DNA from: a virus
Reading direction: 5' to 3' (one strand)
Virus record (IMG/VR): IMGVR_UViG_3300047444_000117
Coordinates: 1-48,085 of that record
DNA: 48,085 nt
Below the pieces are notes generated by a model that did no database searches, was not told the DNA's origin, and worked only from the letters and a program-made list of their open reading frames with translations. Below, in pieces: positions 151 through 48,085 of this stretch. The first letter of the stretch is position 1. Every line of letters starts with the position of its first letter. The position numbers were made by a program, and so were the translations under genes.

Positions 151-210
151 TTAGCCTTGGACACCGACAGGTTCGAACTGCTTAAACGCTAAGTCCAAAT
201 AAAAGGCTAG
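151..210 (+). repeat. Structured element 1: bulged long-stem hairpin
   Basis: TAGCCTT (152-158) pairs with AAGGCTA (203-209). The stem is continued inward by GGAC (159-162) with GTCC (193-196), leaving a 3-prime bulge of six bases. A smaller CAG/CTG stem carrying a GTTCGAA loop lies inside. The strand AAGGC can alternatively pair with GCCTT at 216-220. An element of the same architecture occurs at 412-474, on the other side of the tRNA. Function is unknown; packaging-site structure or a processing signal are possibilities. Confidence 0.35.
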
Positions 211-1013: not shown

Positions 1014-1510
1014 TTGGCGTTACTCAGGAGTACCTAAAGTCGCTTCTGTCATATGACCCGCTCACCGGCGAGTTTCACTGGCGCACCCGCCGTGGGCGTA
1101 TTGCTGCCGGAACGCTCGCGGGAACGGTAGACGAGGACGGCTATACGCAAATCTGTATCAACTTTGTCCGCTACCGCGCGCATCGGCTGGTGTTCCTGTA
1201 TGTGGACGGCTACCAAGTCCCGGACGGTATGGACGTGGACCACGACAACGGAGACACAGGCGATAACCGATATTCAAACCTTCGTATCGCCACGCGCGGA
1301 CAGAACATGTACAACGCTAAACGGCGCAAGGATAACCGTAGCGGTGTCAAGGGCGTGGGTTGGCACGGAGCCGCTAAAAAGTGGCGCGCACGGCTGCGGG
1401 TGGACGGAAAGGAGATATCCCTCGGCCTGTTCAATAGGCTGGAGGACGCGGAGGCTGCTGTAACCTCGGCGCGCTCTGCTGCGCATAGGGAGTTTTCCCG
1501 CCATGCCTAA
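1010..1510 (+). CDS. HNH-AP2 homing endonuclease 1, between terS and terL
   Basis: This 166-residue protein has an HNH nuclease region (about residues 55-100, with VDHDNGDTGDNRYSNLR carrying the His/Asn core) followed by an AP2-like DNA-binding domain (about 108-160, GVKGV...KKWRARL...LGLF). It overlaps terS by four bases and terL by eight, so all three are likely translated together. Such proteins cut intron-less alleles of neighbouring genes and spread by repair. It is one of five paralogues here (also 3065, 12540, 39809 and 47401), the mark of a family that has multiplied within this phage lineage. It is intact, and no intron is evident around it. Confidence 0.88.
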   Translation: MIGVTQEYLKSLLSYDPLTGEFHWRTRRGRIAAGTLAGTVDEDGYTQICINFVRYRAHRLVFLYVDGYQVPDGMDVDHDNGDTGDNRYSNLRIATRGQNMYNAKRRKDNRSGVKGVGWHGAAKKWRARLRVDGKEISLGLFNRLEDAEAAVTSARSAAHREFSRHA

Positions 1511-3053
1511 AGCACAGACACGCGCAGACCGCGTAATTGCGTTTATCGAGCGGTATTTGCGGGTACCGGAGGGGGCGCTAGTAGGGCAACCGATCCACCT
1601 AGAGAAATTTCAAGAGGAGTTTATCAGAGCGGTCTACGACAATCCCGCAGGTACCTCTAAGGCTATCCTCTCGCTGGCCCGCAAAAATGGGAAAAGTGCT
1701 GTTATCGCGTGTATCTTGCTGGCTCACCTCGTTGGCCCTGAGGCTAAGCTCAACTCTCAAATCGTCTCCGGCGCTATGTCGCGCGATCAAGCCGCCCTGG
1801 TGTTTAACCTCGCGGTCAAGATGGTGCAATTGTCGCCCGATATTCGAGACCTCGTACACGTAAGCCCCTCGGGTAAGAAGCTAACAGGAAAGCCCCTTAA
1901 CGTTGAGTACAAAGCGCTCTCCGCTGAGGCGGCTACCACGCACGGCCTCTCACCTATTCTCGCAATCCTTGACGAGATAGGCCAGGTACGCGGCCCGCAA
2001 TCGGACTTTATTGACGCGGTGACCACGGCCCAAGGCGCGCACGATGGTAAAGCGTTGGTCATTGCGATTAGCACGCAAGCGGCTACGGACGCGGACTTAC
2101 TCTCAATCTGGATTGACGATGCGCTTAAATCAGGTGACCCGCGTATCGTATGCCACCTGTACGCAGCGGACCCGGACGCGGAGCTAGACGACCCTAAGGG
2201 CTGGCAAGCGGCTAACCCGGCCTTGGGTATATTCCGCTCCCGGCAAGACGTAGAGCAACAAGCCGCAGAAGCTAAGCGTATGCCCTCGCGGGAAAATACG
2301 TTCCGTAACCTTATCCTTAATCAACGCGTCTCCACGGTCTCCCCGTTTGTCTCGCGGGACGTGTGGAAAAGTTGCGCGGGTGCGCCCGTATTTGCTCCCG
2401 GCTCGCAAGTATTCGGCGGACTGGACTTATCGGCCCGTACCGACTTAACCGCGTTCGTGATTATCGGTAGGCGTGAGGGTAAATGGCACTCCGCTAGTTA
2501 CTTCTGGACTCCCCAAGAGGGCCTTAAGGATAGAGCTAAGCGTGACCGTGTGCCGTATGACCTTTGGGCGGACCAGGGATACCTACGCACTACTCCCGGT
2601 CGCACCGTCGATTACGAGGTTGTAGCCGCTGACATTCTGGAGATTGTCCAGGACTACGAGGTACACAGCATCGCATATGACCGTTGGCGAATTGACCTCC
2701 TTAAGAAAGAGTTCAAGGACATAGGCATAGACGCGGATACGCCAAGCAAAGACGGCGGTCGCCTCCCATTGGTCCCTCACGGGCAAGGCTTTAAGGACTT
2801 CTCGCCCGCCCTCGATGCGCTAGAGGCCGAGTTAGTCAACGGGCGCGTAGTCCATGACGATAACCCCGTACTAACCATGTGTGCGGCTAACGCAGTCGTG
2901 CAAAAAGACCCTAGCGGTAACCGCAAACTGGACAAAGCCAAAGCTACCGGACGTATTGACGGCATGGTGGCTATGGGTATGGCGTTCGGTGCAACGGTGT
3001 TGGCTGCTGCTGACCTTGAGCCGGAGCGCTCTTTCCAATTGCTTGTTTTCTGA
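1503..3053 (+). CDS. terL: Terminase large subunit
   Basis: This is the ATP-driven DNA packaging motor and nuclease, 516 residues. The ATPase shows a Walker A ARKNGKS (residues 59-65) and a Walker B ending in Asp157-Glu158 (ILDE). The C-terminal RNase H-like nuclease begins with GGLDLSARTD, with Asp308 as a metal ligand. Sequence style and length fit the HK97-type (Terminase_1) large subunits, which normally make cos ends. An AGGGAG site precedes the ATG, which lies inside the end of the HNH gene. The gene is intact and is followed by a second homing endonuclease, so it is bracketed by two selfish genes. Confidence 0.95.
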   Translation: MPKAQTRADRVIAFIERYLRVPEGALVGQPIHLEKFQEEFIRAVYDNPAGTSKAILSLARKNGKSAVIACILLAHLVGPEAKLNSQIVSGAMSRDQAALVFNLAVKMVQLSPDIRDLVHVSPSGKKLTGKPLNVEYKALSAEAATTHGLSPILAILDEIGQVRGPQSDFIDAVTTAQGAHDGKALVIAISTQAATDADLLSIWIDDALKSGDPRIVCHLYAADPDAELDDPKGWQAANPALGIFRSRQDVEQQAAEAKRMPSRENTFRNLILNQRVSTVSPFVSRDVWKSCAGAPVFAPGSQVFGGLDLSARTDLTAFVIIGRREGKWHSASYFWTPQEGLKDRAKRDRVPYDLWADQGYLRTTPGRTVDYEVVAADILEIVQDYEVHSIAYDRWRIDLLKKEFKDIGIDADTPSKDGGRLPLVPHGQGFKDFSPALDALEAELVNGRVVHDDNPVLTMCAANAVVQKDPSGNRKLDKAKATGRIDGMVAMGMAFGATVLAAADLEPERSFQLLVF

Positions 3054-3064
3054 CCACGAGACAT

Positions 3065-3550
3065 ATGCTCACACAGACTCGCCTACGGGAATTAGTCGAA
3101 TACAGCCCGGAAACGGGTGTTATGAAGTGGAGAGTTTCCGCGTGTAATCGTGCGATTGTTGGCTCTCCTGCAGGAAGCAAGCGCAAAGACGGTTACGTCT
3201 ACATCGGTATTGGCGGAAAGTACTACTCGCGGCACAGGTTAGCGTGGTTGTACGTCTATGGCGTTCTTCCTGACAACTTAGACCATAAGAACAAAGTACC
3301 CGGCGAGGACTGGCTAGACAATCTACGTCCCGCTACGCATGCGCAAAACATGCAAAACAAGGGCATTCAAAAGAATAACCGCCTTGGCGTGCGTGGTGTT
3401 CGGAAACTGGACGGCGGCGGGTACTTAGCACGCGTACAAGCTAACGGCAAGCAAGTCCTCTGCAAGGTCGTTACGACACTGGAGGAAGCGGCGCACGCGG
3501 TTAGTGCGGCGCGCACACACTACCACGGCGACTACGCCCGCAACGAATAG
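3065..3550 (+). CDS. HNH-AP2 homing endonuclease 2, between terL and the protease
   Basis: This 161-residue paralogue of the 1010-1510 gene has the same domain order: a start like MLTQTRLRELVEY, an HNH core around LDHKNKVPGEDWLDNLR (about residues 76-92), then an AP2-like segment from GVRGVRK to the end. It sits in the short gap between the large terminase and the prohead protease and does not interrupt either. The role is presumably self-propagation by cleavage of phage genomes lacking it. The target site is probably in terL or the protease gene, by analogy with free-standing homing endonucleases. Confidence 0.88.
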   Translation: MLTQTRLRELVEYSPETGVMKWRVSACNRAIVGSPAGSKRKDGYVYIGIGGKYYSRHRLAWLYVYGVLPDNLDHKNKVPGEDWLDNLRPATHAQNMQNKGIQKNNRLGVRGVRKLDGGGYLARVQANGKQVLCKVVTTLEEAAHAVSAARTHYHGDYARNE

Positions 3551-12539: not shown

Positions 12540-13031
12540 ATGCTTACACAGGAACGGCTCAAGGAGCTAGTGCACTACGATCCGGCTACCGGGCTGTTTA
12601 CCTGGCGGGTGGCGCGGCCTAAGTGTCGCGTAGGTGGTCTGGTCGGTTCTACAGACAGCAAAGGTTACTTACGCGCACGAATCGACTACGTAGAGTACCG
12701 CCTACATAGATTAGCAGTACTTTACATGGTCGGGGAGTTTCCCGCTCTAGAGGTTGACCATAAAAACCTAGTGCGTGCGGACAATAGGTGGGAAAACCTC
12801 CGGCTAGCAACGGGTAGCCAGAATCAACATAACAAAGGCACGCAACGTAACAATACGTCCGGGTTCGTTGGTGTCTCGTTCTTTCGGCGCACGGGTACTT
12901 GGCGGGCGCGCTGCAAAGTTAAGGGCCGCGAGGTCTCCTTAGGCTACTACAAAACCGCTGAGCTAGCTGCGTCCGCTGTTAGCGCCGCTCGGGAGCGACT
13001 ACACGGCGAGTTTGCACGGAGGACAAATTGA
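12540..13031 (+). CDS. HNH-AP2 homing endonuclease 3, between tape measure and M
   Basis: This 163-residue paralogue of the other HNH-AP2 proteins has an HNH core VDHKNLVRADNRWENLR (about residues 78-94) and an AP2-like domain from GFVGVSFFRRTGTWRAR onward, ending LHGEFARRTN. It follows the tape measure by eight bases and overlaps the TTG start of the M gene, so it sits between genes that are adjacent in lambda. It is intact. Confidence 0.88.
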   Translation: MLTQERLKELVHYDPATGLFTWRVARPKCRVGGLVGSTDSKGYLRARIDYVEYRLHRLAVLYMVGEFPALEVDHKNLVRADNRWENLRLATGSQNQHNKGTQRNNTSGFVGVSFFRRTGTWRARCKVKGREVSLGYYKTAELAASAVSAARERLHGEFARRTN

Positions 13032-22820: not shown

Positions 22821-22849
22821 TTCCCACACTAGAAGCCCCGTGCTATGCT
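22821..22849 (+). promoter_or_regulatory. Candidate sigma70 promoter of the integrase
   Basis: TTCCCA (22821-22826), a 17-base spacer and TATGCT (22844-22849) with an extended TGC upstream. A start near 22856 would give a leader of about 60 bases containing the CCGGGC/GCCCGG hairpin at 22873-22891. Independent expression of the integrase from the late operon is plausible. Confidence 0.5.
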
Positions 22850-22872
22850 GGTTCCCGGCCCCGTCAGGGTTT

Positions 22873-22891
22873 CCGGGCGATTTGTGCCCGG
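22873..22891 (+). promoter_or_regulatory. Leader hairpin before the integrase
   Basis: CCGGGC (22873-22878) pairs perfectly with GCCCGG (22886-22891) around a seven-base loop, between the candidate promoter and the ribosome site AGGGAG near 22906. No T-run follows. It may limit read-through translation from the late transcript or be a protein binding site. Confidence 0.45.
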
Positions 22892-22916
22892 TGTGTATGC
22901 TACACAGGGAGTCACG

Positions 22917-24323
22917 GTGAGCGAGCATCTTACACGGCGCGGCGGGCGGTACTATTACCGGCGTAGAGTCCCGTCCGACCTCGTAGAGAAGTACGGTAGG
23001 AAAGAGCATACCCAGGCTTTGGGGACTGCGGATAAAAAGGAAGCGACCGAAGCCGCACGTAGGGCGGCGGTACGACTTGACGAGATTTTTAGGCGGCTCC
23101 GGGCGGAGATAAATACGAGCCTTCCGGCCTCGCTGGACACACCCTTACCCACGGTGTACCGCCCGGTGTCGCGTATCCCGCTAGACGAGGTGCTAGACCA
23201 TGAGGAGCGCGTAGAAGCACAGAGGGAGGAGGACGCGCGGGAGGCGCGCATAGAGGAAATTAAGGACGCTATACGTGCGCTGTACGGAGACACGCCCGTA
23301 CCCCTCTCCGCCTCGATAGCGCGCCCCGAAATTGATATGGGGCCGGTGGTGCCCGATACACCTCCGCAGCCCGTTAGCGCGCCTGTGGTCGAGTCCAAAT
23401 CAGGGTTCCCGGAGGCTATCAAAGAGTGGCAACGCAAGCGCACTCCCGGCCCCGGTGCGGTAGACGGAATGAATCTAACCGTATCCCGGTTCTTTGAGGT
23501 GTGCGGGCGCGTCTCCCTCCAGGCTGTCACGCGAGACCACGTTAAGAAGTATCAGGACCATTACCTAGCGGCGGGTATGAATCCCGGCACTGTGCGCTAT
23601 TACAGTTCGCTCCTTAAGGCCCTGCTATCGGTGGCGTTCGATTCTGGAATGATCAAGAGCAACCCGGCTATCGGGGTCAAGCTGGACCGACCTAAGAAAG
23701 CTCCCAAGGCGTCGCGCGTTGCGTTCGCTCTTGAGGACATACGGGTAATACTGGAGAGGTTGCCTACAGAGGGTAACTACCACTGGATACCGCTAGTGGG
23801 CCTCTATACGGGCATGCGGCTTGAGGAGATATGCCAGCTTGCGCCGGAGGATATCAAAGAGGAGACATACCGGGATGCACACGGTAAGACGAGGAAGGTG
23901 TCCGTTATATACGCCACGGACGAGGGCGATAACCAAGGGCTAAAGAATGCGGGATCACGCCGCAAGGTTCCCGTACACGCGGAGCTAGTCAAAGCCGGGT
24001 TTGTCGATTACGTCAAAGCGCAATCCGGCCCGCGTATTTTCCCTGGTCTTAAGGCTAACAAAGCCGGAAGGGAGGGCGCTAACGCTAGTATATGGTTCGG
24101 CAAATTCCTACGCGAGAAATGCGAGATTACCGACCCGCGTAAGGTGTTCCACTCGTTCCGCCATTTGTTTAAGGACGTACTCCGCGAGCATGGCGTACAG
24201 GAGCAAGTTAGCGACGCCCTCACGGGTCACACCAACGGTAGCGTTGGGCGGACCTACGGCGGAGACTACTACCCGCTTCGTCCATTGGTGGAGGCCGTAG
24301 GCCAGTTTGAGCTACACCTTTAG
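22917..24323 (+). CDS. int: Tyrosine recombinase integrase
   Basis: I choose GTG 22917 because AGGGAG lies 7-12 bases before it; an in-frame ATG exists at 22845. The 468-residue enzyme starts with an arm-binding, DUF6538-like segment (LTRRGGRYYYRRRVPSDL), has a long linker (about 60-165), a core-binding domain and the catalytic domain. Arg301 (TGMRLEE), His412-x-x-Arg415 (HSFRH), His438 (TGHTN) and Tyr447 (RTYGGDYY) are all present. It should therefore integrate and excise the genome. It lies inside the lysis region, in the rightward strand. The stop overlaps the converging 24320-24598 gene by four bases. Confidence 0.93.
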   Translation: MSEHLTRRGGRYYYRRRVPSDLVEKYGRKEHTQALGTADKKEATEAARRAAVRLDEIFRRLRAEINTSLPASLDTPLPTVYRPVSRIPLDEVLDHEERVEAQREEDAREARIEEIKDAIRALYGDTPVPLSASIARPEIDMGPVVPDTPPQPVSAPVVESKSGFPEAIKEWQRKRTPGPGAVDGMNLTVSRFFEVCGRVSLQAVTRDHVKKYQDHYLAAGMNPGTVRYYSSLLKALLSVAFDSGMIKSNPAIGVKLDRPKKAPKASRVAFALEDIRVILERLPTEGNYHWIPLVGLYTGMRLEEICQLAPEDIKEETYRDAHGKTRKVSVIYATDEGDNQGLKNAGSRRKVPVHAELVKAGFVDYVKAQSGPRIFPGLKANKAGREGANASIWFGKFLREKCEITDPRKVFHSFRHLFKDVLREHGVQEQVSDALTGHTNGSVGRTYGGDYYPLRPLVEAVGQFELHL

Positions 24324-26392: not shown

Positions 26393-28714
26393 TTAGAACC
26401 ATGCAAACAACGAGTCCCGTACATTATTCAAATTGAGTGAGCCGTACTTAGGTAGCTCGGGGAGCTTCTCCTTAGCCGCAGCAGGCAAATCCGCCGTTAC
26501 CTCAGCCGTCCAGTTAGCCAGAAGGTCCGTAGACATAAGCTCTACAAACTCCTCTCGCGTACTGTTGAACACCTCCCCGCACTGTGCGAACGGTGCGCCG
26601 AATGAGTCATGGATCATCCAGAAATTACGGACGCCCTGACGGTACAGCGCATTAACCGTGCGTACCATATGGGCCGCGTCTACACCGTGGACGAAGTTAG
26701 GCGATACTCCCGCGCGTTGGCCTCGCTTGCTTAGGGTGTCTTGTGTAATCTTAAAAGCACGGTCTCTTGACACGCCAAACGATTTTGTACGTATCTGTAC
26801 GGTGCGCTCGTTAAACCGCTCTTGCGTTACCACAAGACCCGCTGGCGTAGTCCATCGGAGGGGCTTACCTTCCTCGGTCAGCACGTCCGCCACAGATTGC
26901 AAGTACGCCATAGCGCCCAACATACCCGGCGCAACCTCGGTAAAGCACGCGTTGATCTGATTCGCCAACCATAAGCACTCCCCCTCAGGTGCGCCCGTCT
27001 TAGCCTGTACTTGCTCGCCAAACGTAAATGCACCCGCGCTATAAACCTTGGTCATGCTCGGGGCCTTGAGTAAGTCCCGGTCAATCGCCTTGGTGGACCA
27101 AAACCGGAGGTGCTCCATAAGCTCCACACCCGCCCCGGCTACAGAGGTACACAGCCTCCGCGTAAGTGCCTCCGCCATGCGTCCATAGTAATCGTCCCCG
27201 CGCTCGGTTGGCGTGAGGTTCACCATAGCGCCCGCGCTCTCGTCCCGCGTCATGCCGGATAGCATTTGCACGCCCGAACAAGACCCGTCAAGTGCGCCCG
27301 CCAGGCGGCTGCGGAACCCCGGCCCCTCATACGTGAAGCCGTTCCACTCAATACAGGCGGCTAGAAACTGGTACGGCTTGTCCGCTCCGCGCCACTCTTG
27401 ATTAACGTATGGGTCCGTGGCAACGCCGCGAATCATTACATCATTATCCCGCGTCCACTCCTCGCGCTCCTCCGGTGTACGGTTGACCTTGCGCCCGTCT
27501 ACCATGACCTTATCGGCCCCGTACAGGTTGCACAGATTGATAGCGAGCCAACGCGCACCCTCACGGCCCAACGCAACGCCCTCAGCAAACTCCAGCAACC
27601 CTTTACACAGGTCGGAACCTTGCGGGCTAACGATCGTAGTAGCAGGGTACATGCGGCCCCGCCAGTCGAGATTCCACGGGAAGTAAAACGCCTCCGCGTC
27701 CCCAAGCTCCTCAAACGCGTCCAACGTAAGGGCTGAGCGGATCATATTGCTACGGGTCTCCGCTGGTGCATCGTGGCGCACCTCTACAGTACCGTACCCT
27801 TCAATGTGTGAGGACAAAGACTCACGCTCGAAATACTCCGCCACCTCCTTAACGCGTGCATTGACGCGCCACGCGGTACCCTGTAGGGCGTTCAAGGCGG
27901 ACACGATATCTTGCCCCTCGATAGCCTTGCGAACGCCTCTAACGGCCTGTACGTGGCTGTACAGATACCCGCCGTGCGCCATGCCTGTAGACCAAGGCAC
28001 GGGAGGGACTAGCATAGGCTTGCCCTCGATAAACTCCGTGAGGCTCCCGTCCGTCAATACCTCCTGGAGAAACTTAGGAGTAGCCATGAGGTTATTAACC
28101 TCTTGCTTGACTGAGCCAAAGGAGCGCGCCCCGGTTACCTCCTCAATCCAGCCCGTAGAGTGACAAAAGTAATCAATAAGGACTAACGCGGTTTGCTCAT
28201 ACCCAAGCGTCTTATGCGGGTCAACGCCGCCGCACTTATCTTTAAGACGCGCCCCGATACGTTTAGCGGTGCTCTGCACGCTTGCGCCGTCTAAGGTCAT
28301 CATACGGCCCCACGTTACAGACAACCCGCACCACGTAGCCTCTACTAGCTGCTGTACGCTGAGGGCGCTAACCGGGTTCTTACTCTTGCCGTCCAATTGC
28401 ACGCGTGATGGTTGGCTATTCTCCGCAGACAACGCGCGCTTAAGATCAATCCTGACTCGTGGGCCTCCGGTACCTAGTGCGTTACTGAAGTCGCTAAGCG
28501 CGCGCTCTACAGCGTCCCGCCTAAGGTGCGCCTCCGTAATCTTAAATTCGCTAACCGCCTCTCGTGAGAGTTGCTTAAGTACTAACTCGCTAAACCCCTC
28601 CGATACCAAGCGGTCCACATGCGCGCGGGCATATGGGCGCTCTGTAGGAATATGGGAGGCTTGTAAGTCTCGCTTTGCTCGGCGTGCCGCTTGGTATTCG
28701 GAGAGTGTAGCCAT
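26393..28714 (-). CDS. T7-type single-subunit RNA polymerase
   Basis: This 773-residue DNA-directed RNA polymerase has all catalytic elements: Asp476 in DGSCSGVQ (T7 D537), Arg546/Lys550/Tyr558 with the T7 K631-Y639 spacing, and Asp703 in IHDSFG (T7 D812). It ends LFAWF, like the T7 FAFA foot. It is about 110 residues shorter than T7 RNAP, mainly in the N-terminal domain. AAAGG precedes the ATG. It is the last of the replication-type genes on the leftward strand, far from the early promoters, so late expression would be delayed. Its own promoters were not recognised. Combining it with an HK97/lambda tail block and an integrase is unusual. Confidence 0.95.
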   Translation of the reverse strand: MATLSEYQAARRAKRDLQASHIPTERPYARAHVDRLVSEGFSELVLKQLSREAVSEFKITEAHLRRDAVERALSDFSNALGTGGPRVRIDLKRALSAENSQPSRVQLDGKSKNPVSALSVQQLVEATWCGLSVTWGRMMTLDGASVQSTAKRIGARLKDKCGGVDPHKTLGYEQTALVLIDYFCHSTGWIEEVTGARSFGSVKQEVNNLMATPKFLQEVLTDGSLTEFIEGKPMLVPPVPWSTGMAHGGYLYSHVQAVRGVRKAIEGQDIVSALNALQGTAWRVNARVKEVAEYFERESLSSHIEGYGTVEVRHDAPAETRSNMIRSALTLDAFEELGDAEAFYFPWNLDWRGRMYPATTIVSPQGSDLCKGLLEFAEGVALGREGARWLAINLCNLYGADKVMVDGRKVNRTPEEREEWTRDNDVMIRGVATDPYVNQEWRGADKPYQFLAACIEWNGFTYEGPGFRSRLAGALDGSCSGVQMLSGMTRDESAGAMVNLTPTERGDDYYGRMAEALTRRLCTSVAGAGVELMEHLRFWSTKAIDRDLLKAPSMTKVYSAGAFTFGEQVQAKTGAPEGECLWLANQINACFTEVAPGMLGAMAYLQSVADVLTEEGKPLRWTTPAGLVVTQERFNERTVQIRTKSFGVSRDRAFKITQDTLSKRGQRAGVSPNFVHGVDAAHMVRTVNALYRQGVRNFWMIHDSFGAPFAQCGEVFNSTREEFVELMSTDLLANWTAEVTADLPAAAKEKLPELPKYGSLNLNNVRDSLFAWF

Positions 28715-33741: not shown

Positions 33742-36150
33742 TTAGTGAAGAAACGAGGGCGTGTAGCCGCTCATGTATTGTTGTCTCAGTTCAACGCGGA
33801 ATTTATCGGCGCATTGGTCAAAGTCTCCAGTAAAGCCGTTCTCTTGCATCATGTTGTTTCCGTGCACCGTGACACTTGGTACAGGTACAGGAATGGTCCA
33901 GCCGAAATACCACTCCATAAAATCGCTAGCGCCCAACATGCACGCATGGAGAAGCGCGCTAGACTCATGGAGTACTTCTTTGCGTGCGTCCGCGTACAGC
34001 GCGTCATGCACTTGGTTTACGAGTAACGCCCGATGGTTGAAATTCTTACGGGCGTAGAACGCACGAATAGCCAACCACATAGCCGCCTTAGCCCACTCAC
34101 CGCCAGTACCCTGTACCTCGTAGTTGGCAATTTCCGTAGGGCTAAAACCTTGCGTCATACCGCCTTGGCGAATAACCCAAGCCGGGGACGGGGACTCCCG
34201 GTAGCTATAAATCTTGTTATCAGGCGTTACGCTGAAGCCCTTACCAAGCTGGCACATAAGGCCCGGTACGTCCGGGTGTGGCTGTACGTTTTGCGTTGGT
34301 CGGCGGCTGCGTTTAATGCGCTCCGTCTTTTGGCGGTTGTACTCCTCAAGCTCGGGGTACCGTTCGTTCTCCGCCTTGATAAGCGCTTGCACGTCCTCAA
34401 GGCTCATGCCGGTGGTTTCCGCAATCTTGGTAGCGCCCGCACCGTAGGCACGTTGGAACGAGAATTCCTTAGCGCCTTGCCGCTTCTTAGGCCAACCCTC
34501 ACGCGGAGCGATACCTTTATCCTTATCGCCCTTACACCACAGCAAAGCCTCCTCATACGTGCAACCCTCTTTCTGGCTAACACGTACACAGTGCATATCA
34601 AGGCCCGCATTCAAGTCCGCGATAAGCTGCTTACAGCCGGAGAGAATCGCCTGTACGTACACCTCAAGGGAGGTAAAGTCAGACTGGACGATTTGCCCGT
34701 CCTCGCCAAAGCGCGACTCAAATACCAGCTTTACCTGGCTACCTGACTTAAGAGCACCGTTTTCGTCTAGCTCGCCCTTAGGGACGTTTTGTAGGTTCGG
34801 GTTATTGGACGAGAAGCGCGCCGTAACCGTGGACGTGTGGTTAATGCTGTGGTGGATAATGGAGTCAATGCCAACGAGCATTAGCATGCCCTTAGCCTCG
34901 CCCGTCTTTTCGTCCACCGTGTAGTAATAGGTACCAAGGTCTTTGCTGAGCTTGGCTACCTCGGAGAGGGTCTTTAGGAAAGGGATATCCCGGTTACCCA
35001 ACGCCTCGATAACTTCTCCTGCAACGCTGTACAACCCCTCCGTACTACTGGACCATTCCGGCCTAGGCTCGGTGAATCCGGGAAACTCGTAGAAGTAATC
35101 CCGCATTGCTGACTTGGGCTTACTAAGGTCGTCAACCTTTTTAGTAATAGTCTTGTACTCGCCCGCGTTCTTACCGCTGAGATACCGCACGGGCTCCGGT
35201 TGGTGCGCTAGCCTCGTCCAGTCCTCTACCGACATGGTTTCAAAGGTAGGCTTACCGTCTACCGTTGTGGGCCTCCCCTTTAGGTATAGGTGCTTCTCCT
35301 CTTTCTTCGTGTACGCTTGCTTGCCGTCCTCGTCCAAGATAGGCGTGCGCTTTTCGTACTTGACCTTGCCACCAAAGATTAGCGGGCTAAGGTGGTACCG
35401 ATTCGACCAATTGAAGTCAAACGGCAATTCCTCAGGGAGGTACGCGCGTAGCTCGGTGGTAATCTCCTGTAGCTTCTTCTGCAATTCGGAGGCGAGCTTA
35501 AGGCCCAACTCCTTATTAACAAACATGCCATTTTTTTCCATTTCGACCGAACACAGCAAGCTACCCATGTTAAGGAGAATGGATTTAACTTGCCCGGTCT
35601 TGCGTGCTTTCTCTAACTGTCCCTTGAAAATGAGGCGAGTATTACCAATGTCCCCGTGTCCGCTTTCGTCACCACAGAGGTAACGCATAAGCAAATCTCG
35701 GTCAATGTCTACCGTATCTACGCCTGCGTTCCAAAGTGCCTTTACCTCGTCAATCTTGAGATTGCCACCGTAGGCAGGAACCATGTCGTCCATGCTGAGC
35801 ATTTGGCTAGACGGCTGCATACCGTCTAGTAGATACTGAGCCAATTGTACGTCCCAAACATTTCCGCCCCGCGCTACAAACTCCATCCACGCGTCGTAAT
35901 TTTGCGGCTCGCGGAGCGCATACAAGAGGTCGAATTTTATATTTTGACCTACTAGTAGCGTAGTGCCCTTAAGCAAACGAGTAAACCAATCAAACGGCTT
36001 AGCGGCCCGTCCGTAATACGCTCCCTCTACTGGCCCGTCCCCAACAGCCCAACCCGCCGCAACTATGAAATTCTCCGCTAGGAACGGAGAACCCTTGCGC
36101 TTCATATAGGACTTAATAGACGTTTCCAAGTCAAACGTAACGAATGACAC
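33742..36150 (-). CDS. DNA polymerase I-family replicative polymerase
   Basis: This 802-residue polymerase starts at GTG with AAGGAG upstream. The 3'-5' exonuclease has Asp7/Glu9 (FDLET), Asn70-Asp74 (NIKFD) and Tyr157-x3-Asp161. Polymerase motifs are Asp491 (QSDFTSLE), Arg557/Lys561 (RQGAKEFSFQRAYG) and His715-Asp716 (VHDALYAD). All catalytic residues are present. It resembles T7-group PolA enzymes. No host-factor binding loop can be assigned by eye. Confidence 0.95.
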   Translation of the reverse strand: MSFVTFDLETSIKSYMKRKGSPFLAENFIVAAGWAVGDGPVEGAYYGRAAKPFDWFTRLLKGTTLLVGQNIKFDLLYALREPQNYDAWMEFVARGGNVWDVQLAQYLLDGMQPSSQMLSMDDMVPAYGGNLKIDEVKALWNAGVDTVDIDRDLLMRYLCGDESGHGDIGNTRLIFKGQLEKARKTGQVKSILLNMGSLLCSVEMEKNGMFVNKELGLKLASELQKKLQEITTELRAYLPEELPFDFNWSNRYHLSPLIFGGKVKYEKRTPILDEDGKQAYTKKEEKHLYLKGRPTTVDGKPTFETMSVEDWTRLAHQPEPVRYLSGKNAGEYKTITKKVDDLSKPKSAMRDYFYEFPGFTEPRPEWSSSTEGLYSVAGEVIEALGNRDIPFLKTLSEVAKLSKDLGTYYYTVDEKTGEAKGMLMLVGIDSIIHHSINHTSTVTARFSSNNPNLQNVPKGELDENGALKSGSQVKLVFESRFGEDGQIVQSDFTSLEVYVQAILSGCKQLIADLNAGLDMHCVRVSQKEGCTYEEALLWCKGDKDKGIAPREGWPKKRQGAKEFSFQRAYGAGATKIAETTGMSLEDVQALIKAENERYPELEEYNRQKTERIKRSRRPTQNVQPHPDVPGLMCQLGKGFSVTPDNKIYSYRESPSPAWVIRQGGMTQGFSPTEIANYEVQGTGGEWAKAAMWLAIRAFYARKNFNHRALLVNQVHDALYADARKEVLHESSALLHACMLGASDFMEWYFGWTIPVPVPSVTVHGNNMMQENGFTGDFDQCADKFRVELRQQYMSGYTPSFLH

Positions 36151-38494: not shown

Positions 38495-39790
38495 TCACGC
38501 CGCTTCAGTAGGCATAAGGAGGCGTCCCCGGTCACCATCAAAGATGACTTCAGCTTGTGGGCTCTTGGGTTGTCCCGTGCGGGCGAGCTTGTTTTTAGTA
38601 AGCCCGATCCAACGGGTCTTTTCGTAAAACGAATCATTGCTCGACCCAAGGGTAATGATTGCGTCCGCCGCACCTTGCTTGCCGGTCTTGCTATCCTTGA
38701 GCATGGAGAGCGTAGGAAACGTTAGGCCGTCACCGTCCGCGCTAATCTGTGAGTTAGCTATTACCGGCGTGTCATACTTGACAGCCATAAGTCGCGCCCA
38801 CTGATACATAGCTTCTAGCAATTGGTCTGTACGTTGCCCTCCGTTAAGAGCGGACCCGCTAAACTTGATGTTGTCTACCATGTCAAACACAACCAAGCCT
38901 GGAGGACAGCGGCGCATAATGTCCTCTACCTCGTAGCTATAAAAGTCGTGAATATCCATAACGCGGATACGGTCCACGCCACCAACGGCTGAGGCGTAGG
39001 CGCTTTTAATCTCGCTCCTTTGCGTGAGCTTTATAAGGTCCGCAGTAGTAGCGTTAAGCGCTGACTGATAGATACGGTGGACGATTCGCCTACCCGGCCC
39101 CTCGTTGTTAAACCACAGAACGTACCTTCCGTGGTCAGGGCCGTAATACTCGTCAAACTGGCGGGCCATGTGTGTAACCTCGGAAGCTACAAACGTGGTC
39201 TTACCTTTATCGGGCCGCGCGGCAAGTACAAGGAAGTCACCCGGCCTAACAGGACGCATGACGAGGTTTAGACACTCCAGCCGGAAATGTAATCCCCGGT
39301 CGTCCTTATCATCTTGGAGAATGTCCTCAATATCGGTATCAACCCAAGGTACCTTACCCTTGCGTGTCGTGTTGGTCTCGTACCGGGTCATTTCCTCGCG
39401 GAGCGAGATATAAAGGTCTATCTCCTCTCCAGATTCGTACTTCTTAACGAGGTCCGTTACGCGGTGCGCCGTCTCCGCTGCGAGCAAGCGCTCCATAATC
39501 CCGGCTTCTAACGCAGGGTCGCAATCCTCGCTAAACACACTGCCTAGGTAACTGCGGTAAAGCCCTAGTTGCTCCGGGGTTAGCGTTGGGTGCGCGAACG
39601 AGCCGAACCACAACATAAACGGGTCAAGCTCGATACGGTCAACGCCCGCAAACTCCGTAAAGTACTTACCAAAGTCCGCGAGGATTACCTTGCTCTTTTC
39701 CTCCAGTGCTACTGTGGGTACCGCTTTAGCTAATCGGTCGTATCGCTCCTTGCTCTTAAACAGGCGGAGCAAAGTAATCTCTAATGACAT
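38495..39790 (-). CDS. DnaB-type replicative helicase
   Basis: This 431-residue helicase has Walker A ARPDKGKTT (191-199; the usual leading Gly is Ala), a Walker B-like LVVFDMVDN, and QISADG and late arginine motifs of the RecA fold. The N-terminal part is not a primase: the primase is separate (40239-41063), so the T7 gp4 functions are carried by two genes. A homing endonuclease gene lies between them. TTAGGAGTAC precedes its ATG. Confidence 0.9.
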   Translation of the reverse strand: MSLEITLLRLFKSKERYDRLAKAVPTVALEEKSKVILADFGKYFTEFAGVDRIELDPFMLWFGSFAHPTLTPEQLGLYRSYLGSVFSEDCDPALEAGIMERLLAAETAHRVTDLVKKYESGEEIDLYISLREEMTRYETNTTRKGKVPWVDTDIEDILQDDKDDRGLHFRLECLNLVMRPVRPGDFLVLAARPDKGKTTFVASEVTHMARQFDEYYGPDHGRYVLWFNNEGPGRRIVHRIYQSALNATTADLIKLTQRSEIKSAYASAVGGVDRIRVMDIHDFYSYEVEDIMRRCPPGLVVFDMVDNIKFSGSALNGGQRTDQLLEAMYQWARLMAVKYDTPVIANSQISADGDGLTFPTLSMLKDSKTGKQGAADAIITLGSSNDSFYEKTRWIGLTKNKLARTGQPKSPQAEVIFDGDRGRLLMPTEAA

Positions 39791-39808: not shown

Positions 39809-40279
39809 CTATCCGTGGTTTGCAAACTCTCCGTGGTGTAGCTCTCTTGCTGTACGTACCACGTACTCAGCCTCCTCTTTGGTAGGAAAGCGACCTAGAT
39901 TAACCTTCTTACCGCCAATACGGAGTTGCGCAAGCCATTTGCCCCGACTGGCCACGTAGGAGACTCCCTTAATTCCACTGGTGTTGCTAATACTCCTCCT
40001 GTGGTTGCGCTGATTTTGTACGCGTGTTGCGGGCCGCAGATTCGTCCACACGTTGTTTGACCTATTAAGGTCTTTGTGGTCAACGTCATGCGGAGGCCAC
40101 AAACCCGTCACCAGAAAGTAAGCTAATCTATGCGCTCTGTAGTCTCTACCCTTGTGGCGTACGCGCCTATAACCAAACTGCGCGGGCGTATCTACGCGCC
40201 TCTCACCCTCGTAGATTGCCCCGGTGGTTTTGTCGTACCTAAACAGCGTACTTAATTCCCTGTCTGTCAAATTCTCCAT
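39809..40279 (-). CDS. HNH-AP2 homing endonuclease 4, between primase and helicase
   Basis: I start at ATG 40279 (GAGG upstream); 40288 is an alternative. The 156-residue protein has HNH core VDHKDLNRSNNVWTNLR and AP2-like GIKGVSYVASRGKWLAQL, ending HHGEFANHG. The start lies within the end of the primase gene. It separates primase from helicase, domains joined in T7 gp4. Confidence 0.87.
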   Translation of the reverse strand: MENLTDRELSTLFRYDKTTGAIYEGERRVDTPAQFGYRRVRHKGRDYRAHRLAYFLVTGLWPPHDVDHKDLNRSNNVWTNLRPATRVQNQRNHRRSISNTSGIKGVSYVASRGKWLAQLRIGGKKVNLGRFPTKEEAEYVVRTARELHHGEFANHG

Positions 40280-41063
40280 AAATCTCATCCCTCGGTACTA
40301 ACTTAGGGTCTCGCCCAAATATCACGTTATACGTTTCGCAACCGTATGCACGAAGTTGCTTTATTATTACCTCTGCCGCACTCCGCCCCGCCCTATCCGA
40401 GTCAAGAGCTACTATTACCGGGCGTCTTGACTCTATTAACTTCGCGGCGGTGTAAGGGGATAGCTTTGTACCAAGTAGCGCCCAAGACTCAACGCCGCAC
40501 TTTGCTAGCTTTACGGTGCTGAGTATGTCCTCCGTGAGGGCCACGGACGGCCCCGTACCCTCTTTGAATACTAGGTTGGACTTGTCCGCTTTCGGGTTAA
40601 GTACCTTTCGCGGGTGTGTCGGATCTAGAGTGCGCGCTTGCCAGTAAACAATCTTCCCGCTGTCGTTCTTAACCGGCAACACCACACGCTGTAGAGACGT
40701 ACAGTAATAGATACCCAAGCTCTCTATATCTGTGTTACTAACTCCAGCCCGATAGAGCCATACACGGGCCGCAAGGGGCCATTGCTGCGGCTCATAGACG
40801 GCGGGCATGGGTAGGCTAGGGCTAATCTGCGCGATCCGCTCAGCGGCCCTCCTACGCTCGATACGCGCTAGTTTCTCTGCTAGATTCTCCGGGGCTTTCT
40901 CGTGCCAGCCACGATACGAGCATCTATGACAGTACGCGCTATACCCGCCCTCTTTGTGGTTAAGCTGGAGGGCCGCGCCCTCTCCGCAAGCATGCGGAAT
41001 CTTGCGCGTGTATCCCTCCGGCAACCTCTCAGCGTGCGCTACCCAATCCTTAGAATCGCTCAC
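40239..41063 (-). CDS. DNA primase (T7 gp4A-like, zinc + TOPRIM)
   Basis: This 274-residue primase has a zinc-binding N-terminus (HACGEG...YCHRCSYRGWH, with Cys26, Cys45 and Cys48), a central region (VSNTDIESLGIYYCTSLQRVVLPV) and a TOPRIM motif PVIVALDSDRAGRSAAEVI. It makes RNA primers for the helicase-polymerase replisome. It ends before any helicase domain. Confidence 0.9.
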   Translation of the reverse strand: MSDSKDWVAHAERLPEGYTRKIPHACGEGAALQLNHKEGGYSAYCHRCSYRGWHEKAPENLAEKLARIERRRAAERIAQISPSLPMPAVYEPQQWPLAARVWLYRAGVSNTDIESLGIYYCTSLQRVVLPVKNDSGKIVYWQARTLDPTHPRKVLNPKADKSNLVFKEGTGPSVALTEDILSTVKLAKCGVESWALLGTKLSPYTAAKLIESRRPVIVALDSDRAGRSAAEVIIKQLRAYGCETYNVIFGRDPKLVPRDEIYGEFDRQGIKYAV

Positions 41064-46007: not shown

Positions 46008-46919
46008 ATGCCGAACATCATTACAAAATACGGAAAAGACGGACGAGTGAGCTACCAGGCTGTAGTCCGCGTGGATAAGGCTAGGCCAGTTAAAAAGACG
46101 TTCGCCACGGCTGAGGAGGCCGAAGAATGGCGTGTTGCCAAGGACGCAGAATTGCGGGAGCTGAAGACACAACCCGCTTACGAGTTCACGCTTGCGGAAG
46201 CTGCTGAGGAGTACTCACTGTACTATCCCTCGTTCCCTGAGGAGCTTAAGGAACGTCTTGCGGAAACGTATGAGACACCTATCGTAGATATTCAAGAGAC
46301 CGAATTAGAAAACCTCTCGGATAGCGAGCTAGATATTATCGAGTCTGTAATTGAGCACTCCCGTAGACATATGGGCGTTACGGTTCCGGCTAATCCCGTA
46401 ACCATGCTCCGCGCTCGTCGTCTTAATCTCCCGTACAGACCGATTACTCAGTTTGAGGAGGACGCGTTAATAGACGGAGCTAAAGACAAAGCTAATAACA
46501 GCCTATCGGACGTGCTAATACTTGCATTGGACACCGGCTTAGTCCAACAGGAAATTATTGACCTTGAATCCAATAAGGTTTACTTGGACCAAGGTATTAT
46601 CCGCATGAATGAGACGAGAGTAATAGAGCTAACTCCGAGAGCCAAGACGGTATTAACGCGTAGGCTCGGTGATAATACCTCCCGTGTATTTCCTGACCTC
46701 CAGAAGAACACTGTTCAAACCGCGTTCATTAGACTCCGTACTAAGCTCGGTCTTAATGGACCGGATTTTAACGACCTCCGAAAGATTGCCATTCATAGGC
46801 TATCCGAGAAACTCAGCATTCCGGCTCTCAAGGAAGTCCTTGGGTACGCCAAATATGACTCACTGGACTGGCTCTTAAACCTCCAGAAAGCCCGCCAGCA
46901 AATGGCCGCAGGTTTGTAA
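46008..46919 (+). CDS. Catalytically degenerate tyrosine-recombinase-like protein
   Basis: This 303-residue protein follows the integrase plan: an arm-binding N-terminus (RVSYQAVVRVDKARPVKKTFATAEEAEEW), a short core-binding part (about 60-145) and a catalytic-like domain (146-303, LILALDTGLVQQEIIDL...FNDLRKIAIHRLSEKL). However, the Arg of TGxR is Val179 and the His of HxxR is Asn255; Arg258 alone is kept. The GH pair is Gly279-Tyr280, and no Tyr occupies the nucleophile position near 289. So it cannot recombine. A DNA-binding regulator or directionality-type partner of the true integrase is plausible. It has its own promoter, divergent from the early operon. Confidence 0.8.
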   Translation: MPNIITKYGKDGRVSYQAVVRVDKARPVKKTFATAEEAEEWRVAKDAELRELKTQPAYEFTLAEAAEEYSLYYPSFPEELKERLAETYETPIVDIQETELENLSDSELDIIESVIEHSRRHMGVTVPANPVTMLRARRLNLPYRPITQFEEDALIDGAKDKANNSLSDVLILALDTGLVQQEIIDLESNKVYLDQGIIRMNETRVIELTPRAKTVLTRRLGDNTSRVFPDLQKNTVQTAFIRLRTKLGLNGPDFNDLRKIAIHRLSEKLSIPALKEVLGYAKYDSLDWLLNLQKARQQMAAGL

Positions 46920-47021: not shown

Positions 47022-47104
47022 AACCATGGTTATACCAATAGGTTAAATCCTGTTGGTCTATACCTATTAATATAATAACTAAGGATAACACCATGGTTAA
47101 ACCA
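47022..47104 (+). repeat. Direct repeat AACCATGGTTATACC / ACCATGGTTAAACCA
   Basis: ACCATGGTTWWACCA-like sequence occurs at 47023-47037 and again over the HNH start codon at 47090-47104, one mismatch. Each contains the palindrome AACCATGGTT or ACCATGGT. The interval is AT-rich, with candidate -10 boxes (TATAAA near 47016, TATAAT near 47070) but no good -35. The copies may be operator sites for the HNH gene. Confidence 0.4.
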
Positions 47105-47389
47105 GTATTATACCCTAGGCTACGAGGTAGCAAAGGCGTAGCTCAGCGTAAGCGCATTAGAGAAAGAGATAACTATCAATGCGTTAAATGTAGAATAGCT
47201 GTATTAGTTGGTCAGGTAGACCATATTCAATCATTAGAGGATGGTGGAACTAATGATGATAGGAATATGCAACTTCTATGTACTCCATGCCATGAGAGGA
47301 AAACAGCTAATGACAGAGGTTATAAGGTAACCACTGGTACAGATAGTAATGGTTATCCTACCAGCAAAGCGCACCACTGGAATACCTAA
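47093..47389 (+). CDS. HNH endonuclease, likely packaging-associated
   Basis: This 98-residue minimal HNH enzyme has CVKC and CTPC zinc pairs around QVDHIQSLEDGGTNDDRNMQLLCTPCHERK, with the H-N-H residues in order. It lacks the AP2 domain. In HK97-type cos phages a gene like this lies next to the packaging site and terminase genes and stimulates terminase. If the ends join, terS is the next phage gene besides one homing endonuclease. CTAAGGAT precedes the ATG. Its AT-rich composition differs from the main genome. Confidence 0.85.
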   Translation: MVKPVLYPRLRGSKGVAQRKRIRERDNYQCVKCRIAVLVGQVDHIQSLEDGGTNDDRNMQLLCTPCHERKTANDRGYKVTTGTDSNGYPTSKAHHWNT

Positions 47390-47400
47390 TAGGAGATAGA

Positions 47401-47892
47401 TTGAGTATTACCCAAGATAAACTCAAAGAGTATCTAGCCTATGATTCTTGTACAGGTGTATTCACTTGGTTAAAACCTAAGGCACGTAGGATTAAAGTAG
47501 GTAGCGTAGCTGGTTCTCCCGTGGTACGTGGTGGTTATCTGTCTATCATGCTTGATGGTATTAACTACCCGTGCCATCAATTAGCGTGGTTGTATGTGTA
47601 CGGTTACATACCGAATGAGATAGTAGATCATCGTAATAACCAACCTACGGATAACCGTATCAATAATCTTAGATTAGCTACCAAGACTAATAACGCCTAT
47701 AACACCAAGCTATCTAAGCGTAGTACTACTGGTATTAAAGGAGTACACATACGTAACGGTAAGTATATAGCTAGAGTAACCGCTAACGGTGTATCACACT
47801 TCCTCGGTAGCTACACAAGTATAGACGCTGCTACCAATGCTGTGCGCTCAGCTAGAGAACGTCTACATGGTGAGTACGCTAACCACGGCTAG
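47401..47892 (+). CDS. HNH-AP2 homing endonuclease 5, at the right end
   Basis: This 163-residue member of the five-gene family starts at TTG behind AGGAGAT. It has HNH core VDHRNNQPTDNRINNLR and AP2-like GIKGVHIRNGKYIARV, ending LHGEYANHG. Unlike its GC-rich paralogues it is AT-rich, so it was acquired separately or has stayed in a different mutational context. It sits beside the packaging HNH gene. Confidence 0.88.
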   Translation: MSITQDKLKEYLAYDSCTGVFTWLKPKARRIKVGSVAGSPVVRGGYLSIMLDGINYPCHQLAWLYVYGYIPNEIVDHRNNQPTDNRINNLRLATKTNNAYNTKLSKRSTTGIKGVHIRNGKYIARVTANGVSHFLGSYTSIDAATNAVRSARERLHGEYANHG

Positions 47893-47896
47893 GCCA

Positions 47897-48011
47897 CATT
47901 GATTAACTCATTGTTGGTCTACATTGAATTACTCATTGGTTATTACATTGAGAGTTACCCTTGGTCTAACCTTGGTACCTACATTGGTAGTACCCATTGG
48001 ATAATACATTG
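47897..48011. repeat. Phased array of ten CATTG/CCTTG motifs
   Basis: CATTG or CCTTG begins at 47897, 47909, 47922, 47934, 47946, 47959, 47970, 47982, 47995 and 48007, a mean spacing near 12.2 bases. Flanks alternate TACATTG and CTCATTG/ACCCTTG types, so the larger unit is about 24-25 bases. The last 74 bases (48012-48085) are AT-rich with no evident motif. It is not coding, since the period is not a multiple of three. Terminase binding site or origin iterons are the main options. Confidence 0.75.
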
Positions 48012-48085
48012 GTCTGAGACCTAATATTCTTATTTCTCAAACGTGTTCTTATTCTGGAAATTAAGTTTTATATTTCTAAGAAAAT

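Follow-up and report, generated by a model that had tools for sequence, protein, structure and literature searches.

A periodic CATTG repeat array on the left flank of a putative HK97-type cos site in a temperate siphophage family

Near the right end of a virus record of 48,085 nucleotides, a five-base motif recurs ten times at nearly constant spacing. What is this array for, and which protein would read it? The stretch analysed here (the window) is the whole record, and it comes from a virus of soil bacteria. A first-pass annotation of the window had described ten copies of CATTG/CCTTG in steps of 11-13 bases in non-coding DNA. This description was borne out: the positions were counted and the stretch lies outside the called genes. 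The definition of the array is based on sequence, positions and statistics.

47897 to 48011, + strand: repeat array, ten direct copies of CATTG/CCTTG with a mean spacing of 12.2 bp

The cores start at 47897, 47909, 47922, 47934, 47946, 47959, 47970, 47982, 47995 and 48007, and the successive steps are 12, 13, 12, 12, 13, 11, 12, 13 and 12 bp, which are not all multiples of 3. Eight cores are CATTG and two are CCTTG, all on the + strand. Anywhere else in the window, C[AC]TTG occurs at most three times per 118 bp. We scored the array by a de novo chain search, in which any 5-mer with steps of 11-13 bp was allowed. The array scored 18, shuffled sequences scored 4.2 on average with a maximum of 6 (n = 200), and the next-best chain among 120 tiles of 400 bp from the window scored 7. 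The array is thus well beyond what chance would produce. When the step range leaves out 12-13 bp, the score of the array drops to 4-7. Of the 16 phage records that were scanned, 6 contained exact four-fold 5-mer repeats at the array spacing, and each time they were at the array only. Because Tandem Repeats Finder did not report the array, its copies are not recent duplications. The repeat search of the window found no multi-copy promoter-like motif at the array.

The array had also been called helically phased. The mean spacing of 12.2 bp corresponds to 1.16 turns of B-DNA, and successive cores are rotated by about 60 degrees. Therefore, the array has a regular period, but its cores are not in helical phase. 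A repeat unit of 24-25 bases, proposed in the same annotation, is partly real: the dinucleotide just 5′ of successive cores tends to switch between TA and CT/CC, and the same tendency is seen in relatives.

The genes around the array are as follows.

46008 to 46919, + strand: dInt, a protein of tyrosine-recombinase fold that has an arm-binding domain but lacks most catalytic residues; may bind the array, but in this clade alone
47093 to 47389, + strand: HNH nuclease gene (PF01844), syntenic with HK97 gp74 and conserved left of cos in the family
47401 to 47892, + strand: homing-type HNH_3 gene (phrog_99 kind), an insertion that separates the HNH gene from the array and is absent from the close relative L003
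528 to 1013, + strand: terS, small terminase of the HK97/16-3 type (phrog_5601)
1503 to 3053, + strand: terL, large terminase

L004 is the same phage, identical to the window over 10.6 kb, and it continues from window position 48085 via ten bases, TTATACGGCA, into window position 1. Because L004 joins the window ends in this way, the array precedes terS on the circular or concatemeric map, as had been supposed, and the order is dInt, packaging-type HNH, homing-type HNH_3, array, cos, terS and terL. The claim that the array follows the packaging-type HNH gene needs correction in one respect. The gene that adjoins the array (47401-47892) is the homing-type HNH_3 gene, and the HNH gene conserved beside cos in all relatives is the one that precedes it (47093-47389). 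Five similar HNH_3 (phrog_99-type) homing-like genes are present in the window, at 1010-1510, 3065-3550, 12540-13031, 39809-40288 and 47401-47892, and none is found in the close relative L003/G001. In an Rfam search over the window and relatives, tRNA alone was matched: a complete tRNA-Cys gene lies at 281-368, between cos and terS, and it is not at the corresponding loci of the relatives tested.

The position of the array relative to the genome end depends on where cos lies. The phage has a TerS and a TerL of the HK97/16-3 family, with terS just right of cos and the HNH gene left of cos, as expected of an HK97-type cos. The following elements were recognised.

125 to 129, + strand: G-run left of cosN, present too left of the right genome end in HK97 and 16-3
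165 to 174, + strand: inferred cosN, the 10-nt stretch CGACAGGTTC between two strand cuts, a putative 3′ overhang, flanked by GGACAC (159-164)
185 to 201, + strand: candidate TerS recognition box AACGCTAAGTCCAAATA, which starts 11 nt right of the cut; the same box and offset are found at the HK97 left end

In nearly all relatives one element is conserved, namely the G-run, then GGACAC-CGAC.GGTC, then AACGCTAA. Contig right ends (G005 and G008) and left ends (G008 and L008) share the same alignment columns. The contig ends of G008 and L008 fit a 10-nt gap and G005 has a 7-bp overlap instead; the contigs do not show strand polarity. At the left end of HK97 the sequence is GTTTGAATTT-AACGCTAA, compared with CATTCAAAAC-AACGCTAA in L008; the box and its +11 offset are the same. 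HK97 cos ends are 3′ overhangs of 10 nt, and HK97 TerS binds from +15 to +29 from the cut (PMC11331095). The HK97 overhang is given as 10 nt in a figure legend and as 12 nt in the discussion of another paper (PMC9410871). Because the conserved element agrees with the left end of HK97 and with the points at which the contigs of relatives end, a cosN at window positions 165-174 is strongly indicated, with a likely TerS box at 185-201. The resemblance to known cos regions is close. HK97 and 16-3 share with this phage the TerS/TerL family, the G-run left of cos and, putatively, a 10-nt single-stranded end. HK97 also has an HNH gene (gp74) left of cos, at its right end, and a AACGCTAA-type box from +11; the Rhizobium phage 16-3 has GCTAA at +15. 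In contrast, neither HK97 nor 16-3 has a repeat array in the corresponding interval.

The ends of the window itself were at first favoured as cos, because ten bases are missing between them according to L004, like a trimmed 3′ overhang. This candidate was rejected on the evidence for 165-174. In L004 the window ends are 10 bases apart (TTATACGGCA), with 164 bp between them and the inferred cosN to their right, and a GAAAATTTATACG element at the window ends is common to L003, L020 and L024 only. Several palindromes were observed near cos. Fur-box-like palindromes (AATGAGAATNATTCTCATT) are at 49-67, 100-118 and 135-149 in the window. Most of L003, L005, L006, L009, L017, L225, L226, L231, L086, G005 and HK97 have them no more than about 130 bp from cos. 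The one in HK97 has 15 of 18 matches, which was equalled in 0 of 300 shuffles. Near the cos of L016, L024, L229, L232 and 16-3 such palindromes were not seen. Another palindrome-like element, GTTGTGATATACCAAC, is at 75-92 and is found once or twice left of cos in L009, L018, L016, L006, L079 and L080.

In the window, about 250 bp separate the end of the array from cosN to its right. Where both can be measured, the array lies left of cos at a distance of 109-314 bp; this distance varies and there is no fixed geometry. Arrays of relatives lie in the same interval (packaging HNH gene to cos), on the same strand and with the same steps of 11-13 bp, and their recurrence at the same place is what would be expected of an array of binding sites. 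The core differs among them. It is CATTG in L003 and L005, CATAG in G008, and CAGTG in L009/L007, L016, L017, L018 and G005, as well as in L224 and the isolate prophages L225, L226, L230, L232, L233 and L235. A CAGTG array is also present in G014 and in G013, a prophage of Pararobbsia alpina LMG 28138 (Burkholderiaceae) that was found by a genome scan with the HNH profile. The arrays of L005 and G014 are statistically weaker than the others. Half or fully decayed arrays were found in L227-L229, L231, L241 and L079. There is no array in L236, L006, L020, L024, L086, L087 and most clade-B dInt phages. Several relatives share the cos and have a very similar terminase, yet their array is decayed or missing; the array is therefore not essential to packaging as such. 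Across all genomes compared, we found no gene whose presence tracks the array.

Is the array nevertheless under selection? In aligned close relatives (a small set in which one sequence was used twice), 4 of 140 core sites and 16 of 152 spacer sites were variable (p = 0.010). The lower change in the cores supports the view that the core is under selection. In addition, the period and the place of the array persist across strongly diverged phages. These properties bear on the simplest alternative, a neutral or decaying tandem repeat without function. Copy number and integrity do differ among close relatives, as this explanation would have it. However, the cores vary less than the spacers, period and place are kept in strongly diverged phages, and the silence of Tandem Repeats Finder shows that the copies are not recent duplications. 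We regard a functionless repeat as very improbable.

We tentatively read the array as a series of iteron-like direct repeats that acts in cis and serves as protein-binding sites on the left flank of an HK97-type cos. In a family of temperate siphophages, it would lie in the non-coding interval from the packaging HNH gene to cosN, and a phage-encoded protein may bind head to tail along it. Judged from its position, the array could be an optional accessory of that genome end, with a role in initiation or termination of packaging or in control of the late operon, which begins at this end. The best-supported part of this reading is that a direct-repeat array for protein binding, optional and fast-evolving, flanks cos on the left, with a core that drifts among CATTG, CAGTG and CATAG. 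That it forms an accessory protein-binding array of the cos flank is a proposal that we favour with some reserve.

The first-pass annotation had suggested a ring-shaped TerS as the binder; on this reading the array is a packaging site, and TerS would wrap its DNA. The neighbourhood suits this idea, for the array lies beside cos and terS, and TerS is of the HK97/16-3 type. However, the state of the array does not track TerS. Among isolate prophages, TerS is 94-100% identical (88-92% for L236) and the arrays range from intact to absent. TerS of L241 is 99% identical to that of array-intact phages, yet the cores of L241 are changed. TerS of the array-less G006/G007 is 73-78% identical to TerS of four array carriers. 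Because the array state varies among near-identical TerS proteins, TerS is unlikely to be the binder. Moreover, the conserved HK97-like candidate TerS box lies on the opposite side of cos, right of it, and conservation of TerS residues near the ends contrasts with a changing array core. In HK97, a site of 15 bp suffices for TerS, and the DNA is threaded through the channel of the protein (PMC11331095). In our reading, the small terminase does not use the array as its core recognition site, and we consider its use as a TerS-wrapped packaging site improbable. The packaging HNH protein gives a similar picture: it is 96% identical between L231 and L235, and the array is decayed in L231 and intact in L235.

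Repeated protein-binding sites beside cos are already known from phage lambda. In lambda cosB, a DNA-binding protein, the small terminase, recognises a few short R sites next to cosN, on its right flank. In contrast, the arrays described here have up to ten 5-bp cores and lie on the left flank, with TerS an unlikely binder, and the co-change of TerS and array that would be expected of an array like the R sites was not found. A search of the literature, limited to open-licence papers, gave no match for cos-flank repeat arrays, and nothing in these papers contradicted the remark in the first-pass annotation that no siphovirus packaging site with this layout was known to it. We could not find a description of this variant, an array of up to ten cores on the left flank with the TerS site on the right.

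A further candidate, in the clade of the window, is dInt. The protein combines a recombinase fold with an arm-binding domain of the beta-beta-beta-alpha type. No clade-A member retains Arg I, the Lys hairpin, His or Tyr, and a dN/dS of about 0.08-0.17 indicates purifying selection. dInt was found in G001-G005, G008, L012 and L018, and its clade B comprises G007 and G014-G017. No bacterial carrier turned up when genomes were scanned with the dInt profile. Conceivably, dInt uses its N-terminal arm-binding domain to contact the array in the way that phage integrases recognise arm-type sites, and now serves as a structural or regulatory DNA-binding protein. The retention of the arm-binding domain and fold under purifying selection, with the catalytic residues lost, is consistent with this, its gene lies one gene from the array, and every clade-A dInt locus with a readable HNH-cos interval carries an array. 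We had earlier favoured dInt as the necessary binder. It was demoted because CAGTG arrays of the same kind are present in prophages without any dInt (G023, G024, G028, G030, G031 and G032, and also G013), and the whole P. alpina genome holds distant integrases only. Furthermore, clade-B dInt phages are mostly without the array. Binding by dInt is therefore an unlikely answer. A related candidate, that the array represents the arm sites of attP, was rejected. Integrase arm-type sites of attP are repeated short sites, like the array, and dInt with its arm-binding domain is nearby in the clade of the window. In contrast to an attP site, however, the neighbouring recombinase is catalytically dead, the canonical integrase is encoded at 22845-24323, 22 kb from dInt, and arrays without dInt exist.

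In the isolates and G013, an S24-type repressor sits in the dInt slot (S24 was assigned from the sequence and not by a profile search). In another explanation, the array is an operator or activator array through which a regulator controls the late operon (terS onward) or neighbouring immunity genes. A TTGACA hexamer is present between the array and cos in the isolate prophages L229, L232, L233, L235 and L241, and one S24 repressor type is found in 5 of 6 isolates with an intact array as compared with 1 of 6 others. However, the correlation with repressor type is weak, with exceptions in G028 and G034, and no sigma-70-like promoter was found on the + strand from the array to the window end. Because dInt and the S24 repressor are unrelated, yet both accompany the CAGTG core, neither protein explains all arrays. 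Control by such a regulator is a doubtful explanation, although one worth keeping in mind.

Iteron replication origins and direct-repeat centromeres consist of short head-to-tail repeats with near-constant spacing in an AT-rich neighbourhood, and the array resembles them in this. The array might accordingly be taken as the iterons of a replication origin, bound by a phage initiator beside an AT-rich unwinding stretch; an iteron-binding initiator had been named in the first-pass annotation as well. The last kilobase of the window is the most AT-rich (40% GC), and the GC-skew minimum is at 47115. However, the skew minimum also falls where the genes change direction, and in relatives its position does not consistently match that of the array. 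In contrast to the known systems, no initiator or partition gene was recognised in this phage, and its replication genes are T7-like. The initiator idea thus found no positive support, and the chance that the array is an origin seems low.

Returning to an accessory binding array on the cos flank, we can also consider a more specific form of it. The array may be an extra cis module, not known from HK97, in which co-evolving 5-bp sites every 12 bp on the left genome flank seed a protein filament that grows head to tail and controls the use of that end; in the clade of the window, a retired, catalytically dead integrase would be the binder. We offer this form as a speculation that is unlikely to hold.

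Packaging from cos is studied in HK97 as a model, and the small-terminase site of this phage was resolved only recently. A widespread left-flank array, with natural core and loss variants among near-identical phages, provides a comparative system in which to ask if accessory sites are used by cos phages and what protein would read them. Furthermore, a cos map has been gained for an environmental family of Burkholderiaceae phages that has no close record in the phage collection searched. The replication genes of the window are an observation in their own right: a T7-like single-subunit RNA polymerase is encoded together with polA, helicase and primase in a temperate HK97-type siphophage (26393-28714, 33742-36150, 38495-39790 and 40239-41063), and the best match of the RNA polymerase in the phage collection is about 33% identical.
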